DNA from: Hyunsoonleella flava
GTDB taxonomy: Bacteria > Bacteroidota > Bacteroidia > Flavobacteriales > Flavobacteriaceae
Direction of reading: 5' to 3'
Length of the DNA stretch: 64,000 nucleotides
NCBI RefSeq assembly: GCF_004310325.1
Contig: NZ_SIRT01000002.1
Span: forward strand, 248,001-312,000
Shown here: positions 12,117 to 19,852 of the stretch, one piece after another
Layout of the letters: each line of letters starts with the position of its first letter
Numbering within the stretch: position 1 is the stretch's first letter
Position numbers and translations under genes: made by a program
The notes under the pieces: model-generated
What the model saw: only the letters and a program-made list of their open reading frames with translations
Told to the model about the DNA's origin: nothing
Databases searched by the model: none

Positions 12117-12989
12117 ATGAAGAAGGTATTACTATTTGCTCTTTTTGTGTTAGCCGTTATTTGTTTGGCTTGTTTTAAGATTAAGCCTGTCATGCGTGTA
12201 TCAAATGCATTAATGTCCGAGGTAAAACCATCAGGACTTCTTAATAGGGATAGTCTAACGATTACTTCGAGAGTTAACGTTCCTAACGGGTACAAAAGGG
12301 TGGTATACCTAAAAAGGTCGTTTCAAGATTATCTACGAAATTATAAACTAAAACCCTTCGGCACAAAAATCATTAATTATGATGATACGGAATATTTCTG
12401 GCAAATGGGACATATTGGAGTTCTAGAAATTTCAGTGCCTAAAAACGGATTGCAACAGTGCGCAGATGCCTTAATACGAATAAGAAGTGAGTATCTATGG
12501 GACAATGATAGAAAAGAAGAGATAGGGTTTAATTTCACCAGTGGACATTATTGTTCATGGCAAAAATATGCAGAAGGTTACAGACCAAAAATTAAAGGAA
12601 ACAAAGTCTCATTTCATAAAACATCAGCTGCAAATCATTCAAAAGAAAACTTCTATAAATATTTGAATTTAATTTACATGTATTCTGGTACATTGTCACT
12701 TTACAATGAACTTCCCAAAATAAATGACGCTAAAAATTTAAAGATTGGAGACATGCTGATAAAAGGAGGTTCACCTGGGCATATTGTAATGATTTGTGAT
12801 GAGGCCGTAAATGCTCAGGGCGACAAAATATATTTACTTTTTCAAGGTAATACACCAGCTCAAAGCGTGCATTTGGTTAAAAACTTAGAGGATTCTAAAC
12901 TATCACCCTGGTATCGCTTGGAAAAGGATGCAGTAATCCCCGTGTCTAATTACACATTTTTTGATTCTAAATTTGTTAGGTTTAAGTAA
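12117..12989 (+). CDS. DUF4846 family exported protein
   Basis: A 290-residue protein with an N-terminal hydrophobic signal (residues 4-19). The pattern fits DUF4846: FQDYLRNYKLKP, the LQQCADALIRIRSEYLW helix, FNFTSGHYCSWQKYAEGYRP, then KIGDMLIKGGSPGHIVMICD. The last segment resembles the His-containing strand of NlpC/P60-like folds (GD-x-x-I/V...GH-x-x-I/V), so a cell-envelope hydrolase is conceivable; the catalytic set is not established. It is transcribed toward the CHAT gene and overlaps it tail to tail by 8 bp. Confidence 0.8.
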   Translation: MKKVLLFALFVLAVICLACFKIKPVMRVSNALMSEVKPSGLLNRDSLTITSRVNVPNGYKRVVYLKRSFQDYLRNYKLKPFGTKIINYDDTEYFWQMGHIGVLEISVPKNGLQQCADALIRIRSEYLWDNDRKEEIGFNFTSGHYCSWQKYAEGYRPKIKGNKVSFHKTSAANHSKENFYKYLNLIYMYSGTLSLYNELPKINDAKNLKIGDMLIKGGSPGHIVMICDEAVNAQGDKIYLLFQGNTPAQSVHLVKNLEDSKLSPWYRLEKDAVIPVSNYTFFDSKFVRFK

Positions 12990-15864
12990 TGCGTTTTGTT
13001 TTGCGTTTTCTCAAAATGAAATAAGCAGCTAAAACAATAAGAAATCCTACTATAAAGCACCAAATAATCCCGGAATTAGATTGTAGCTCTATAGGCGAGG
13101 TATCACCAATAAGTACTAAACCTGCCCAGTATTGTGGGGCTAGGGTTCTACCTTCAGCCTTTTCAATGTATTTTAATTTTGCTTTTTGAAGCGCCTCATC
13201 TTTAGGTAAACCTCTTTTTATATTCTGATAGAAGAATTCAATAATTTCAGAGCTGGATTTTTCATCTATTTTCCAAAGACTTGTTAATATGCTCTCGCTA
13301 CCAGCATAATTAAAAGCATGCGCCAAAGAAATCATGCCTTCCCCAGCTTGATATGTTGGTTTCCCTGTTTCGCAAGCAGTTAAAATGGCAAGATTGGAGT
13401 TTAGGTTTTCATTGTAAATTTCATAGGTGTACAGTGAATTATCATCATCTGGACTGTTTTTTGCAAATATTAGACGAGAAAGCTCAGGAGACACATTATT
13501 GGATTCCGCATGTGTGCCAATGTGGATTATTTTATGCTCGTTCGCTTCATTCTTAAAAATTTGCTTGGAGGCATTTTGGTTTATAAAATAGTCTCCACCA
13601 AATAATCTGGAATATTCTTTTGCTAGGTCAACGCTAAATGGTTGGGGTAGTAGGCTCAAATAAGTTTTATCCAAGGATAGCGAGTCGGTTATACTTATAC
13701 TATAATCCTGTTTCATTTTATTGCTAAACTCTGGTGCAAAGGCAATGAAGTCTTTGCTATAGTTAATGGTTTTGTCGTCACTACCGTAAAGCAAAAGGCT
13801 GTAATTATATGAAATATTATATTTTGCTAATAAACTGTTTGTTGACAAATCTTTGAGGTTGTTTATTTTAGAAGGTGTTAAGCTCTCAAAGCTTAAGTTG
13901 AATAATTCACCATCGGGAATTATCACCACATTTTTTGTTGTTATTTCGGGAGCAAAAGGTGCCCATATAGATTCGTAAAGCTTATATAGAGATTCTGATG
14001 TTTTTTTTACATCAGAATCATGATTGGATAGTATTGATATATATTCTTTTAGGCTTTTGGTTTTTAATTTGAACAGCTTTTTATCGGCTTTATGTATAAC
14101 TGTTGTATATAAAGTATCACTAATATATAAGTAGCGTACGAAAGTGGTATGCTGCGGTATGTTTTTGTGAAGGCTATCCAAAGGTTCTTCAATAGTGGCG
14201 TACCGCATTTTATAATATTTAGGATACTTTTGTTTAAGGGAATCCAAAAACACACTCCATTGTGCATTAGCATTGAAAAATGTATCAATTGAGGCATTTG
14301 TACCATTTAGTGCAGAAGACATGTTATCCTTCAAAAGCTTTTCTCTATTAATAATAGTTTCTGGAACATCCGAAAATTTGATCTTTTTAAGGTTTAGCCT
14401 AGATCTTATTCTATTGTACAAACTAGATTCGTGAAGCCCAACGAGATTATCGAGATAAGTTTTATCTTTTGTTTTCCCATAAAGGTCAAGAAATAGTTGT
14501 TTTCTAAAATCTATTAATTTTTGATGATCGGTAAGTAGTGTTTCTAGGTCGGAAGGTGTTTTAATAATAGTTCTCTTTCGCCCCAAAATATCCAAAGCTT
14601 CTTTGGTTTGTTTCAATAAACTGTCTAGCCCAGATATGGTATGGTTTTGCTTTAAAAAATATTCAGATTTTGTTTTTATAAGTAGGGATATTGGTTTTCT
14701 AGTTTCGTTCTGAATAGAATCCAACAGATTGTTCATTTTTAGGTTTTTATTTTCAAAAAATTGCAATGCCTCATGACTGCGCTTTAGGGCATTTTTGTAG
14801 TCTCCAATAGTGAAATTTACTGATGCTAAGTTTTGTATTTGATAAAAACGAAGTAATTCATTTTTATATGATTTTTTTTTCGTGTAGTTATACCCCTCTT
14901 TGGCAAGAGATAAAGCCTTATTGTTCATGCCGATTTTGGCATAAAAATTAGACATTTCTACCAGTCCATCTAAGAATGTATTTGAGTATACGCCATTAAA
15001 GTTTTCCCTATACACGGCTTCACACATTTCATAATATATTTTGGCGTTTTCAAAATCTTCTATATTTTCATAAATTGAAGCTCTTACCAAATAAGCGTAA
15101 CTCTTAGCGAATGGTATTTTATCAATATTCCCAATGCCCTTATCTGTTATTTTTCCTGCTTTGCCATAATTTCTAGCTATTAAGTGAAGGTGCCCAAGAA
15201 TAAGTTGCGATATGGTGAGTGCGCTATCATCAGAGGGCAGTATTTTTTGTTTTTTTTCGTACGAATACGTTGCTAAACTTATGGCGCGCTCATTATCACC
15301 CACACCACGATAAAAACCAGCAAGATTATCAATACAGGCCAACCGTTTTTTTGTAGCTTTTAGTTTTTCGGCATCATCTTCAACCCTAGTGCTGTAGTTA
15401 TGTATGTGCGTTATAGCCTCATGTAAAACCGTAATGGAATTTTGGGTTTTGCCAGTATTAAAATAGTTGAGAGCCATACTATTTTTAATAATTCCCTGCT
15501 TATATTCCTTTTTTAAATCAGATAAAGGTGACTTGTGTAAATATTTAAGAGACTTGTTAAAATAGTAATTTGAACTATCTAATTTTTGTAAGTTCTTTTG
15601 TGTTAATCCTAAAAGGTTAAAAGATTTATACTTTAATTCAGGTAGGTTGTTAGAATCCTTATCAAATTGCTTAATAATTTGATGAAGCGTTGATTCTGCG
15701 GCTTGTGTTTTTCTAGATTTGAAAAGACTATCAGCAAGATTGTATTTAATTTCTAAGGGGTTTTTATTGGACGAAATCGAATCATTTTGCGCATTAATTG
15801 TTGAAATACTTAATGTTAGAAGCACCAATAATACGCCTCTAATAATATGTAGTAATTTCATCAT
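12982..15864 (-). CDS. membrane-anchored TPR-CHAT protease
   Basis: A 960-residue protein: signal peptide (about 1-26), a long helical region of tetratricopeptide repeats (roughly 35-400, e.g. AINYFNTGKTQNSITVLHEA-like units), a linker, a C-terminal CHAT domain (about 620-925), then one transmembrane helix (932-951) with a basic tail (RKRKTKR). CHAT is a caspase-like clan CD peptidase; the dyad is visible as His785 in HIGTHAES and Cys831 in TACETG, followed by the typical GEGMISLAHAF and SLWKIDE. The topology puts TPRs and protease in the periplasm. It is the last of three same-strand genes after an ECF sigma factor and a TPR membrane protein. Substrate unknown. Confidence 0.9.
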   Translation of the reverse strand: MMKLLHIIRGVLLVLLTLSISTINAQNDSISSNKNPLEIKYNLADSLFKSRKTQAAESTLHQIIKQFDKDSNNLPELKYKSFNLLGLTQKNLQKLDSSNYYFNKSLKYLHKSPLSDLKKEYKQGIIKNSMALNYFNTGKTQNSITVLHEAITHIHNYSTRVEDDAEKLKATKKRLACIDNLAGFYRGVGDNERAISLATYSYEKKQKILPSDDSALTISQLILGHLHLIARNYGKAGKITDKGIGNIDKIPFAKSYAYLVRASIYENIEDFENAKIYYEMCEAVYRENFNGVYSNTFLDGLVEMSNFYAKIGMNNKALSLAKEGYNYTKKKSYKNELLRFYQIQNLASVNFTIGDYKNALKRSHEALQFFENKNLKMNNLLDSIQNETRKPISLLIKTKSEYFLKQNHTISGLDSLLKQTKEALDILGRKRTIIKTPSDLETLLTDHQKLIDFRKQLFLDLYGKTKDKTYLDNLVGLHESSLYNRIRSRLNLKKIKFSDVPETIINREKLLKDNMSSALNGTNASIDTFFNANAQWSVFLDSLKQKYPKYYKMRYATIEEPLDSLHKNIPQHTTFVRYLYISDTLYTTVIHKADKKLFKLKTKSLKEYISILSNHDSDVKKTSESLYKLYESIWAPFAPEITTKNVVIIPDGELFNLSFESLTPSKINNLKDLSTNSLLAKYNISYNYSLLLYGSDDKTINYSKDFIAFAPEFSNKMKQDYSISITDSLSLDKTYLSLLPQPFSVDLAKEYSRLFGGDYFINQNASKQIFKNEANEHKIIHIGTHAESNNVSPELSRLIFAKNSPDDDNSLYTYEIYNENLNSNLAILTACETGKPTYQAGEGMISLAHAFNYAGSESILTSLWKIDEKSSSEIIEFFYQNIKRGLPKDEALQKAKLKYIEKAEGRTLAPQYWAGLVLIGDTSPIELQSNSGIIWCFIVGFLIVLAAYFILRKRKTKRIT

Positions 15865-15876
15865 TTTAATTAATGT

Positions 15877-16620
15877 TTAATCGGTAAGCTTCAAAACAAC
15901 TTCCTTTGCTTTGTCACTTTTACTTAGGCTAAGGTTCTTTTTAGCAAGTTCAAGGTTTCCAGCTTTTAAGTAAGCTAGCCCTAAATAGTAGTAAGCATCA
16001 TCTAAAAATTTAAAATTATCAGGAGCTTCAACTGTACGCTCTAGAAAGGGAATGGCCTGGGCTTCTTTTCTGTTTGCCATATATGCAATACCTAAAAAAT
16101 AATTTATGGTATCGTTTTCAGGTTTTTCTTCGGCTAAAACCGTCCATTTATCAATAGCATCTTGGTAATCACCATGTTTATAGTCAACCATAGCCTCATA
16201 AAAATCATAATTATTGGTACTGCTCATAGTTGTGGGTAGCCCTGGGTCTGGTTTAAAGTAATTGGCGTATAGTTTTTCATTTTGTGGCGTACTGAAAAAC
16301 CAAATACTACCCACGGCAATAATGATGGCAGCAGCAGCAGCAATTCTACTATATCTTAGAAAACGAACTTTTTGTTCGGGAGAACGTTCTTTTGTTGTTG
16401 CTTTTGGGACATCTTCATGAAACTCATTTAACTGCTCCTTTAAAGATTGGGCTTCAATACCAAAAAGCATTGTTCGAACATCTTCAACCTGCGCTCTAAA
16501 GTCTTCGTCGAGATCTAACAGTCTATTAAAGTCTTTTAGCTCTGGAGTACTTAAAGTGCCGTTTAGGTAACGTTCTATTGTTTCTAATAATTCTTCTGAT
16601 ATGTTATCGTTCTCTTTCAA
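15877..16620 (-). CDS. single-pass membrane TPR protein, putative anti-sigma partner
   Basis: A 247-residue protein. The N-terminal 85 residues are cytoplasmic and resemble the short helical part of anti-sigma factors (ERYLNGTLSTPELKDFNRLL). A transmembrane helix follows at about 90-109, then two or three TPR units (e.g. GDYQDAIDKWTVLAEEKPEN, LGLAYLKAGNLELAKKNL) that would lie in the periplasm. It starts 6 bp after the sigma gene and ends 12 bp before the CHAT gene. The layout suggests a sensor that holds the sigma factor at the membrane and binds a periplasmic partner through its TPRs; this is inference. Confidence 0.75.
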   Translation of the reverse strand: MKENDNISEELLETIERYLNGTLSTPELKDFNRLLDLDEDFRAQVEDVRTMLFGIEAQSLKEQLNEFHEDVPKATTKERSPEQKVRFLRYSRIAAAAAIIIAVGSIWFFSTPQNEKLYANYFKPDPGLPTTMSSTNNYDFYEAMVDYKHGDYQDAIDKWTVLAEEKPENDTINYFLGIAYMANRKEAQAIPFLERTVEAPDNFKFLDDAYYYLGLAYLKAGNLELAKKNLSLSKSDKAKEVVLKLTD

Positions 16621-16626
16621 TATGTG

Positions 16627-17193
16627 CTATTTTGAGGCTAAAACCATAGCCCTTAATTTCTGCATACATCTGTATTTTTTGTTGCGGGCTGTGTTTTCTT
16701 CTATATTTAATTCTTCTGAGATTTCTTTTAATGATTTCTTTTCGAAATAAAATGTTTTTAATAGTTGCTTGCAAGGTTGTCCTAAAATTTCAAAAGCGGT
16801 CATTGTCAACTTTAGTTTTTTATCTTCTACTTCATTATATGTGTCATCTGCTTTCACTGTTTTTAGGGTATCAGTATTTAATGGTTTAAAATCCTTAAAT
16901 GATTTTGATCTTAAAACATCGGTCCATTTATTTTTGCAAATTCTGTATAAATAACCTTGTAAAGCGCTATCATTTTGTGGCGTAAACTTGTCTTGTTTTA
17001 CGTGTGTCCAAACTGTAATAAATGCTTCTTGATAAATGTCTTTAGCATATACCGAAGAACCACTGTTTTTTAATACCAAAGCTTCAACTTTAGGGTAATT
17101 TGCTGTGTACAATTCTTTTAGTACCCCTGCGTCATTTGCTTTAATAGCCTCAATTAGTTGAGACTGACTTAATAAATGTATTGTTTTCCCCAT
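16627..17193 (-). CDS. RNA polymerase ECF-type sigma factor
   Basis: A 188-residue sigma-70 family protein with region 2 (YPKVEALVLKNSGSSVYAKDIYQEAFITVWTHV, DNA-melting helix near GYLYRICKNKWTDVLRS) and region 4 (QLLKTFYFEKKSLKEISEELNIEENTARNKKYRCMQKLR, a helix-turn-helix). First gene of a three-gene run with the TPR membrane protein and the CHAT protease. A near-consensus TATCTTTC lies at 17210-17217 upstream. The TPR membrane protein next to it is the most likely regulator; the targets are not evident from this window. Confidence 0.92.
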   Translation of the reverse strand: MGKTIHLLSQSQLIEAIKANDAGVLKELYTANYPKVEALVLKNSGSSVYAKDIYQEAFITVWTHVKQDKFTPQNDSALQGYLYRICKNKWTDVLRSKSFKDFKPLNTDTLKTVKADDTYNEVEDKKLKLTMTAFEILGQPCKQLLKTFYFEKKSLKEISEELNIEENTARNKKYRCMQKLRAMVLASK

Positions 17194-17296
17194 GAATTAA
17201 TAGCTAGAGGAAAGATACAATTATTTCATTTTTCTTCAAATACTACATTGCTAAATGGTTAATAATTTGGTTATACAGTATTCATAGCATTATGGT

Positions 17297-17758: not shown

Positions 17759-18541
17759 TTACTTTACGTTAGGGTTATCTGGTTCTGGATCAAAAACATC
17801 GGGTGTGCCATCACCATCTCTATCCGAAAGTGAATCTCTATCTGGAAGCAATAGTTCAAAACTTATTGGGAAAAACACATTCATTGCTAAACTATCATAT
17901 TCATTAATAGGACCAGCAGAAATAGAAACAGCAACTGAACTTCCAAAAGGCGTTGGAGAAACGGCTACTGTAATAATAGCCCTGGTATTCCCAAACCTGA
18001 TGGCTCTAGCACTAAAAGTTCTTGTAATTCCACCAAAGTTTGCTGTTTGTGTTGGAGGAGCACAATCTACTACTGGTGTTCCGTTGAAGCCATATTCGTT
18101 CACCATTAAATCGTTTATAAAAAAGGCTCTAATATCATCTATGTTCGCAGTTCCAGAAAATGAAGTAATAGGGTAATACCTCCAAAAGACCTTGTTTTGT
18201 GGGTTATTATTTGACCTTCTCATGTCTACACCAAAAGCGGTATTTGGTATTGAAAGTGGAGTAACAGTGTAGTTTTGCGGTACTGTAAACCTTATATTTG
18301 TAAACACATCTGGATGATCAAAAGTGCCTTGTGGGTTTGGTACCATAGGGATACTTGTAAATGGTGCTGGAATTCCGTTGGCATAATCCCAATACACTGC
18401 TGTTGGCCCAGTAAGATTATTTGTAATACATTGTGTTTGTGGTGTTGCACCTGCAAAATTCACTGCGTCATTATCATTTGAATTACAGGATACTACTAGG
18501 ATAATAATTGCTAAAAGGCTATATATCTTAAATGCTTTCAT
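17759..18541 (-). CDS. lipoprotein with C-terminal Asp-rich calcium-type repeat
   Basis: About 260 residues. I placed the start at MKAFKIYSLLAI, which gives a proper lipoprotein signal (VVSCNSNDND). The middle is a beta-rich domain of no family I know (WDYANGIPAPFTSIPMV, FGGITRTFSARAIRFG). The C-terminus DRDSLSDRDGDGTPD followed by VFDPEPDNPN is a thrombospondin type-3-like Asp motif that binds Ca2+ in other proteins. It sits between two further lipoprotein genes on the same strand. Function unknown; surface or periplasmic location is likely. Confidence 0.6.
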   Translation of the reverse strand: MKAFKIYSLLAIIILVVSCNSNDNDAVNFAGATPQTQCITNNLTGPTAVYWDYANGIPAPFTSIPMVPNPQGTFDHPDVFTNIRFTVPQNYTVTPLSIPNTAFGVDMRRSNNNPQNKVFWRYYPITSFSGTANIDDIRAFFINDLMVNEYGFNGTPVVDCAPPTQTANFGGITRTFSARAIRFGNTRAIITVAVSPTPFGSSVAVSISAGPINEYDSLAMNVFFPISFELLLPDRDSLSDRDGDGTPDVFDPEPDNPNVK

Positions 18542-18608
18542 AATTCGTGCTTTTTTAAATTGATTCGTTTGTTTATAACATCGATTTGAGTTTAAAATGT
18601 CATCACTT

Positions 18609-19766
18609 TTAATTTTCAATAGTGTATTGTGTCCAATCTTGATTATTTATAGAATTGTCTACATTCGGATTATAGAGTGAATTGTCCGTGCCTATATATT
18701 CGTTGTTTTGGTTCATCCAGTAATAGTTGTTTTGCCCTTCAACATAATATTGTTGACCAGTATTAGGACTAGAAACGGTTGTGCGTTCCCAAATACCATT
18801 GTTTATAGATTTTGAATGACCCGCATCGTTCATATTATTTCTGCGTTTCCAACTTTCAAAACTGCTGTCTGAAATTGAGCTGTATGTATTACCAAGATTT
18901 CTACTGGCTTGCCCTTGGGCATTAGTTGCAGCCATTCGTTGTTGGTGTTGTGCAGCCCCTTGTCTGGATTTTTGCGAATAAAAGTTATTATTGGTTTGTA
19001 CCCATTGTGGATTAATTTGAAAATTTACAAGTGAATTGATAAATGCTTTTTTAGCGCTTTCGTATTTGTGCTCAGGAGCTCCCATAGCATTTAGAGTATA
19101 GCCCCAATCCATTCCGCCAGCAGTTGGATAATGATTAGTAAAATAGCGGATAATACCAATAGATTTATCGCCATTTTTATCTACCCATTCTGTTGCGATA
19201 CATTGAAATTGTTTATTTTCTGGGATGCCTTTAAACAAGTAACTATCAAAGCGCTTATCAAATTGAGCTAAGGCAGGCAGTGGAAATTGATTTACTAATT
19301 TTAGTCCTTGAGATTTCGCATGTGGTAAAATATCTTCTTGAATTACCCTACTTATGTTTTTTACTGGAGCAACTGGTCTGCCACTTTGTTGGTTCATGTA
19401 ATTTAGTTGTTGGTTGTTGGAAAAAAAGTAAGAGATAAATCGTTCTCCATATACTTTCACACCATCTTCAGACTCAAATAAAATACCGTCTTTATTTTTT
19501 TGTTTCACCATCCAGTCTTTTGGAATAGGCATTACACCAACAGGCAAGTTAAATTGTTTGCTCATCACCTTATAGCCCTTTAAGCTGCGATTAGTGTTTT
19601 GTGACCTCTCAGGTTTGGGTTCATTAAATTCAGCTGAAATATCTTCTTCAAAAATATCTTCGGAATCATAGTCAAATTCAGCAAAGTTATCGTTGTGCTT
19701 CTGGGATTGTCCGCAGGAAAAGAATAGTAAAATTAACATACTTAAGCAATACATCAAAGGTTTCAT
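18609..19766 (-). CDS. lipoprotein of unknown function
   Basis: A 385-residue lipoprotein: lipobox LFFSCGQ, an acidic linker, then a folded region (LPVGVMPIPKDWMVKQ, GVKVYGERFISYFFS) that could bind a ligand. The last 120 residues are rich in Asn, Gln and Ser and contain IWERTTVSSPNTGQQYYVEG and NYYWMNQNNEYIGTDN, a Tyr/Trp/Asn-rich tail. First gene of the three-lipoprotein run. The folded part resembles a domain found in Bacteroidota lipoproteins of unknown role; I assign no function. Confidence 0.6.
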   Translation of the reverse strand: MKPLMYCLSMLILLFFSCGQSQKHNDNFAEFDYDSEDIFEEDISAEFNEPKPERSQNTNRSLKGYKVMSKQFNLPVGVMPIPKDWMVKQKNKDGILFESEDGVKVYGERFISYFFSNNQQLNYMNQQSGRPVAPVKNISRVIQEDILPHAKSQGLKLVNQFPLPALAQFDKRFDSYLFKGIPENKQFQCIATEWVDKNGDKSIGIIRYFTNHYPTAGGMDWGYTLNAMGAPEHKYESAKKAFINSLVNFQINPQWVQTNNNFYSQKSRQGAAQHQQRMAATNAQGQASRNLGNTYSSISDSSFESWKRRNNMNDAGHSKSINNGIWERTTVSSPNTGQQYYVEGQNNYYWMNQNNEYIGTDNSLYNPNVDNSINNQDWTQYTIEN

Positions 19767-19852
19767 AATAAGGGTATTTAATAAGGTTTAACAAACATTT
19801 ATATCATTACATCGAAAGTGTTTAAAAATGTCATCACCCTATTAAGTTTTAG

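Follow-up and report, generated by a model that had tools for sequence, protein, structure and literature searches.

A sigma factor, a membrane TPR protein and an anchored CHAT protease-like protein recur together in Bacteroidota, suggesting a proteolytic switch for surface lipoprotein genes

In a 64,000-nucleotide stretch of the Hyunsoonleella flava genome (hereafter the window; contig NZ_SIRT01000002.1), we examined a run of three genes encoding an ECF-type sigma factor, a single-pass TPR protein that resembles an anti-sigma factor (TPRAS) and an exported TPR-CHAT protein. Sequence comparisons suggest that the CHAT protein cuts TPRAS and, by doing so, switches on genes for surface lipoproteins. 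We lean slightly towards reading the trio as a membrane signalling module, in which CHAT would be the membrane-anchored site-1 protease that frees the sigma factor for a lipoprotein regulon.

The first-pass annotation of the window had placed three same-strand genes here with gaps of 6 and 12 bp, and the open reading frames, their strand and their lengths (188, 247 and 960 aa) bear this out (Table 1). Its sigma factor call is also sound, with Pfam matches of 43 bits (Sigma70_r2) and 26 bits (Sigma70_r4); sigma-70 regions 2 and 4 in a short protein (PF04542, PF04545, TIGR02937) make it a member of the ECF group. The genome of 3.8 Mb has 26 Sigma70_r2 matches and one CHAT match. Two further Sigma70_r2 matches lie in the window on the minus strand, at about 53870 and 57445 (C12:301872 and C12:305445).

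Table 1. Features of the locus and of its predicted target genes (window positions)
Feature	Position	Strand	Basis
ECF-type sigma factor, 188 aa	16627..17193	-	Sigma70_r2, Sigma70_r4 and TIGR02937 above cut-off
TTTG-N19-TATCTTTCC upstream of the sigma gene, conserved and resembling a primary-sigma promoter	17209..17240	-	conservation; -7 box from the available part of PMC9723704
TPRAS, single-pass TPR anti-sigma-like protein, 247 aa, TTG start	15877..16620	-	Pfam; AlphaFold2 pLDDT 90.3
TPRAS cytoplasmic helical domain, residues 1-85	16366..16620	-	helices 9-19, 25-37 and 39-70; anti-sigma matches below cut-off
TPRAS transmembrane helix, residues 87-109	16294..16362	-	hydrophobicity/charge and AlphaFold2 model
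TPRAS periplasmic juxtamembrane linker, residues 119-134 (ANYFKPDPGLPTTMSS), candidate cut site Met132-Ser133	16219..16266	-	linker comparison
TPRAS periplasmic TPR helices, residues 135-247	15880..16218	-	Pfam and model
TPR-CHAT protease-like protein, 960 aa, predicted exported and membrane-anchored	12982..15864	-	CHAT 135 bits; AlphaFold2 pLDDT 89.8, pTM 0.85
CHAT protein signal peptide, residues ~1-26	15787..15864	-	N-terminal hydrophobic stretch
CHAT domain, residues 625-921	13102..13992	-	Pfam 135 bits, cut-off 24
His785 codon	13510..13512	-	invariant in alignments
Cys831 codon	13372..13374	-	invariant in alignments
CHAT protein C-terminal transmembrane anchor, residues 933-951	13012..13068	-	hydrophobicity/charge
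Lipoprotein LP259, predicted target gene	17759..18541	-	relatives near sigma gene or CHAT
TGATGACAT-N13-CGAT before LP259	18580..18605	-	promoter-like element
Lipoprotein LP385, predicted target gene	18609..19766	-	relatives near sigma gene or CHAT
TGATGACAT-N13-CGAT before LP385	19811..19836	-	promoter-like element

A secreted 960-residue TPR-CHAT protein with a His785/Cys831 dyad and a C-terminal anchor had been proposed, and each of these features was recovered: the CHAT match at 135 bits, a hydrophobic stretch at either end and both residues invariant. The dyad was kept in all 34 rows of an alignment of the window protein with 33 relatives' genes collected with no motif filter, and likewise in all 78 rows from trio loci, window included. 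Because the retrieval pattern for the 68-row CHAT set contains the catalytic Cys, its invariance there is partly by construction (the window excepted), as it is for the 30 named rows among the 78, which were drawn with the same pattern. The domain above cut-off and the His-Cys dyad place the protein in the CHAT family (PF12770) as a putative peptidase. The anchor is followed by RKRKTKRIT, hence a predicted C-in orientation; across the CHAT genes of relatives and named loci, 101 were predicted C-in and 7 tied or out, and 12 were without a C-terminal helix. Possession of the anchor was associated with sigma linkage in the phylum sample (odds ratio 3.4, p 0.03), with no effect in two other sets. 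In a plasmid search, 160 records matched the CHAT protein and none covered more than 80% of it.

AlphaFold2 was run on alignments of the window proteins with named relatives. The highest-ranked Foldseek matches were five chains of the Craspase TPR-CHAT protein, followed by separase and DdvA, with query TM-scores in the range 0.24-0.40. Profile searches with the CHAT region matched DdvA (E 5e-6) as well as Csx29 (E 0.007-0.013), and in both the His and Cys are aligned. The remark that CHAT peptidases usually act in the cytoplasm does not take DdvA into account: this transmembrane anti-sigma factor, present in the PDB (8rot and 8rw5, which we take to be the Myxococcus xanthus protein), includes a CHAT domain in its sequence.

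The TTG start of the TPRAS gene (16620) aligns with the Met starts of relatives. Pfam locates the TPRs at about residues 140-232, and hydrophobicity and charge predict an N-in protein with its TPRs outside, consistent with the earlier picture of a single-pass protein with an anti-sigma-like part inside and TPRs outside. TPRAS-like genes of relatives and named loci were mostly predicted to be alike (53 N-in, 3 tie, 1 N-out and 3 without a helix). The gene stands behind its sigma gene and its product is single-pass and N-in by prediction, as in anti-sigma-type placement. Among 26 rows, matches of the N-terminal part to anti-sigma models were all below cut-off: NF052375 in 14 (including the window), PRK13920 in 7, NF047528 in 6 and RseA_N in 1. 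A PDB search with the cytoplasmic domain gave no anti-sigma match.

We assessed how widely the genes are linked. The CHAT protein was matched in 20 of 60 genomes (the window's included) at 37 places, and 33 stretches covered 35 of these, leaving out the window itself and one 20-bit match. Counted on stop-to-stop frames, a sigma gene lay within 3 kb of CHAT in 24/35 cases in the relatives' stretches, 25/62 in 59 stretches over the phylum and 30/87 in 80 named loci. The phylum sample took the top PF12770 match per genus among about 150 matches listed from a longer set, with one genus present twice, one already sampled genus omitted and one stretch without a profile-detected CHAT gene; its 25/62 implies that many CHAT proteins have other roles or work unlinked. 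Within that sample, sigma genes per flank bin fell from 20/120 at 0-2 kb to 8/114 at 2-4, 3/112 at 4-6 and 0/57 at 6-8 kb.

Pooling all stretches yielded 77 distinct loci (79 before repeats were removed) with sigma gene, TPRAS and CHAT within 6.5 kb. Their arrangement was window-like in 34, convergent in 21, and with CHAT upstream on the opposite strand in 13 or on the same strand in 9. A CHAT tree made by a quick method requires at least 24 changes of arrangement; in the window's clade (SH-aLRT 100), 20 of 21 rows share the gene order of the window. Since these loci were chosen for holding the trio, they demonstrate turnover of gene order, not the frequency of linkage.

Co-inheritance was followed in 298 genomes of the family, where 143 had a CHAT match (PF12770, E up to 0.001) and 138 a TPRAS match (profile, E up to 1e-15). 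Both were present in 135, CHAT only in 8, TPRAS only in 3 and neither in 152 (phi 0.93). Copy numbers correlated (rho 0.85) and were equal in 101 of the 135; the TPRAS search scored nine candidates per genome, which makes absences and high copy numbers less certain. Among 102 listed genera with two or more genomes (a list that omits some genera with neither gene), 24 show a joint change of CHAT and TPRAS in the same direction, 7 a change in CHAT only, 1 a change in TPRAS only and none a change in opposite directions. FecR, another anti-sigma family used as a control, occurred in 268 of the 298 genomes, with phi 0.19 (its overlap with CHAT judged by eye). Four of the eight CHAT-only genomes were inspected: in G520, sigma, a longer TPR gene missed by the TPRAS search and CHAT follow one another; G421 carries a fragment of 394 aa; G359 has a CHAT without anchor; and in G560 the CHAT is anchored, and 15.9 kb of sequence contains neither sigma nor TPRAS. 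From the TPRAS-only genomes we inspected G009 and G454 and left out G486. Conservation of linkage had been named beforehand as one point on which the three-gene proposal should stand or fall, and on this point it stood: the trio recurs over the phylum, and CHAT and TPRAS mostly come and go together.

A candidate cut site lies in the TPRAS juxtamembrane linker. In the AlphaFold2 model, residues 122-134 form no secondary structure and separate the membrane helix region from the first TPR helix, with a mean pLDDT of 75 for residues 131-140. In 71 of the 77 trio loci, the juxtamembrane segment contains an Arg or Met with G, S, A, N or D directly after it. Shuffling gave 37.6, and never more than 51 in 500 rounds; three other regions gave 23-28. 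In the window's clade, Met is followed by Ser or Gly in 20/20 CHAT-bearing rows (e.g. PDPGLPTTMS, PTVMG), and the linker is closer to that of the window than the N-terminal part is in 18 of the 20 (one equal, one lower), as in L127 (75% vs 35%). Two genomes with TPRAS and no CHAT match, G009 and G454, show the reverse: their linker has decayed to 56% and 31%, further than the N-terminal part (75% and 53%). On the 14 kb read in these two genomes there is no sigma gene, so the decay of the linker does not single out CHAT. Their TPRAS genes (L225 and L226), with neither sigma nor CHAT at the locus, are leftovers that look like fossils of the module. Six genomes in the phylum carry TPRAS and no CHAT match; judged by eye, the Arg-small linker is kept in three (G278, G341 and G305) and absent in three.

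The Met-type linker belongs mostly to one clade, and Met arose independently in L051, which is without the marker CHAT residues of that clade. We considered CHAT residues that split Met-linker from Arg-linker systems (e.g. E868 vs D868) and rejected them, as the split is confounded by one clade and L051 does not follow it.

A promoter-like element, TGATGACAT-N13-CGAT, was found through a 32-nt repeat in the window, upstream of the LP259 and LP385 genes beside the sigma gene. Searched for exactly, with a spacer of N13-14, it occurs within 130 nt upstream of 11/13 LP385 relatives and 11/12 LP259 relatives (one likely a repeat record). In 20 genomes chosen for contrast, 52 sites fell in the 10 with a window-type CHAT (37% identity or more) and 2 in the other 10, and the reversed pattern occurred twice in all 20. 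The 298 family genomes contain 188 sites. Of these, 159 belong to the 135 genomes that carry CHAT together with TPRAS, and 29 to the remaining 163; at least one site was present in 52 of the 135, and all 29 genomes with three or more sites carry both genes. The element also clusters near TPRAS: among the sites and genes listed for 39 TPRAS-bearing genomes, 61 of 132 sites, spread over 31 genomes, have a TPRAS gene no more than 8 kb away, vs about 0.8 expected (the set includes the single-site genomes G363 and G583, whose sites are near TPRAS).

The genes behind the element are mostly predicted to encode lipoproteins. From a sample of 40 stretches with 41 sites (three at the locus of G021 itself), 38 sites had a frame within 400 nt. 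By a loose rule, the 38 downstream genes comprised 31 lipoproteins, 6 signal-peptide or membrane proteins and 1 that was neither, vs 122, 219 and 438 in 779 background frames; by a strict lipobox rule, 24/38 were lipoproteins, vs 56/779 in the background. In 28 of the 38 the gene starts 19-36 nt past the element. Among ten downstream proteins scanned with Pfam, one carries a type IX secretion tail, PD40 or fn3 is matched weakly in two, and the other seven have no match. A simple promoter scan gave promoter-like sites at chance level. LP259 ends in an acidic DRDGDGTPDVFDPEPDNP tail that may be calcium-binding and resembles thrombospondin type 3 repeats. At L037 and L125 (an Aequorivita record), CHAT immediately follows an LP385 lipoprotein gene, and sigma and TPRAS are absent from the locus.

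The sigma gene of the window has no exact TGATGACAT-N13-CGAT element upstream; the sequence conserved there instead resembles a primary-sigma promoter, its -7 box being TAnnTTTG according to the available part of PMC9723704. Of 86 sigma-TPRAS pairs, two (L128 and, in G021, L040) have the exact element within 250 nt upstream of the sigma gene. By coordinates, assuming the usual sigma gene length, it also precedes sigma in G508, G409 and G500. As 84 of the 86 are without it, autoregulation occurs and is rare, and most other sigma-TPRAS systems may use a different promoter. Elements like TTAACCTT stand about 15-40 nt before the sigma start in L044, L047, L053, L056, L154 and L190, perhaps another promoter class.

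In the mechanism we propose, sigma would be held by the cytoplasmic N-terminal domain of TPRAS, while the CHAT protein, exported and anchored in the inner membrane by its C-terminal helix, would turn its active site toward the periplasmic membrane surface. An envelope signal, perhaps sensed by the TPRs of the CHAT protein, would trigger CHAT to cut the juxtamembrane linker of TPRAS, after Met132 here and after Arg in systems of the R-G/S/N types. A site-2 protease would then complete the cleavage, and the freed sigma would transcribe genes with TGATGACAT-N13-CGAT, mostly for lipoproteins and other exported proteins. We infer that sigma is bound, that TPRAS is cut and where, that a site-2 protease takes part and that sigma reads the element. 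The genome encodes homologues of M50 site-2 proteases (two PF02163 matches), which is weak evidence because 14 of 14 control genomes have one. The first-pass annotation had already suggested that the protease cleaves the sensor and so releases sigma; this remains the model with the best support, now extended by a candidate cut site and a promoter-like element, with cleavage itself still putative. Its notion of TPR-TPR contact across the periplasm was not upheld: with both proteins placed in the inner membrane by prediction, any contact would run along one membrane face. The TPRs of the two proteins align over about 90 columns only, as TPRs do.

CHAT might instead act without cutting TPRAS, binding its periplasmic TPRs or linker so as to hold or shield it until a signal brings release, with the dyad serving another substrate. 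The conserved linkage and the linker suit a binding site as well as a cut site, yet the dyad is invariant in 78/78 rows, where a binding-only domain would be expected to lose it somewhere, and Arg/Met-small would be an odd signature for a binding surface; we regard this alternative as unlikely. Rather improbable, in our judgement, is that CHAT is an output, expressed by the sigma factor and cutting other envelope proteins, perhaps in cell death or remodelling. It would fit the window's clade, in which CHAT follows sigma in one run, and the predicted targets, which are envelope proteins. However, the exact element in the window precedes LP259 and LP385 and not the sigma-TPRAS-CHAT run, and in convergent loci CHAT lies outside the sigma transcript; the joint loss of CHAT and TPRAS does not separate input from output. 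That the three genes are neighbours without a common function, kept by descent, is hardly credible and already disfavoured. Local synteny is common to close relatives, but at least 24 rearrangements kept the linkage (among loci selected for linkage), and 24 parallel gains or losses occurred within genera.

Cleavage of TPRAS by CHAT, the reading we prefer, is of a kind already known from Craspase, in which CHAT cuts a sigma inhibitor, and from DdvA, in which CHAT is part of a membrane anti-sigma factor. In type III-E CRISPR, Csx29 cuts Csx30, the inhibitor of CASP-sigma, and a TPR-CHAT protease, an ECF-like sigma factor and an inhibitor likewise make up one module (PMC10028731, in the part available). 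The likeness extends to the top Foldseek matches and the aligned His and Cys. In contrast, Craspase is triggered by target RNA via Cas7-11, whereas the CHAT protein of the window is predicted to be exported and anchored and its inhibitor is a transmembrane TPR protein. PADLOC matched no model to the sigma factor, TPRAS or the CHAT protein, and neither Cas7-11 nor Csx30 was named among the eight Pfam-scanned and three PADLOC-scanned proteins. DdvA, the anti-sigma factor of the ECF sigma DdvS in Myxococcus xanthus (PMC4374960, as far as that text was available), similarly ties a CHAT domain with His and Cys kept in the alignment to a membrane anti-sigma factor, but in a single chain of 991 aa where the window has two genes. 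No CHAT/anti-sigma fusion occurred in the CHAT genes scanned, which sets them apart from the DdvA type. RseA/DegS/RseP also pairs a periplasmic site-1 protease with a membrane anti-sigma factor, followed by RseP (same portion of PMC10028731), whereas the site-1 protease of the window would be a caspase-like cysteine protease.

Protease genes beside an ECF sigma gene have other precedents. ECF54 has CHAT, subtilase or carboxypeptidase genes nearby and, unlike the trio, is said to lack an anti-sigma factor (Geodermatophilus model; accessible portion of PMC8999054). EACC2-caspase loci carry an ECF sigma and a DUF1822 TPR protein, and differ in their caspase domains and TPR family (PMC8195603, in its available section). 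We found no paper on the sigma/TPRAS/CHAT trio in Bacteroidota or on the structure of DdvA in the literature within reach, most subscription literature lying beyond it. As far as that search extends, the split form, with a CHAT protein predicted to be exported and anchored and with a putative regulon, appears new and widespread.

We put at even chances the wider proposal that such CHAT proteins serve a large class of Bacteroidota ECF systems as their site-1 proteases, forming a periplasmic equivalent of Craspase that is independent of CRISPR and would cut the Arg/Met-small linker of TPRAS, with the sigma factor of the window's clade driving a lipoprotein and exported-protein regulon through TGATGACAT-N13-CGAT. 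If true, it would explain some of the cases in which a Bacteroidota ECF lacks a class I anti-sigma domain in its vicinity; such a domain is near only 6% of Bacteroidetes ECFs according to the available part of PMC7406223. Exported bacterial relatives of caspases would gain a likely job, with the same wiring of protease, inhibitor and sigma as CRISPR-bound Csx29, and, if Craspase derives from such modules, CRISPR would have taken over an older sigma switch. With a target element, a candidate cut site and catalytic residues in hand, input, cut and output can each be tested.

Neighbouring genes and other architectures varied among the loci. In the window, a DUF4846 gene (12117-12989) overlaps the end of the CHAT gene by 8 bp, and genes alike in size and position stand at its place in L032-L034, L038 and L039. 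In L142, L161, L172 and L187, two to five CHAT genes stand in tandem, and the stretch examined shows no sigma gene. CHAT proteins of a subfamily with 854-901 aa (L057-L062) are encoded about 3-5 kb from sigma, with genes of about 650-690 and 320-350 aa between. In one family (f36; L083, L091, L092, L102 and L109), a fixed cluster comprises a 317-aa gene, an anchorless CHAT, two opposite genes, sigma and TPRAS.
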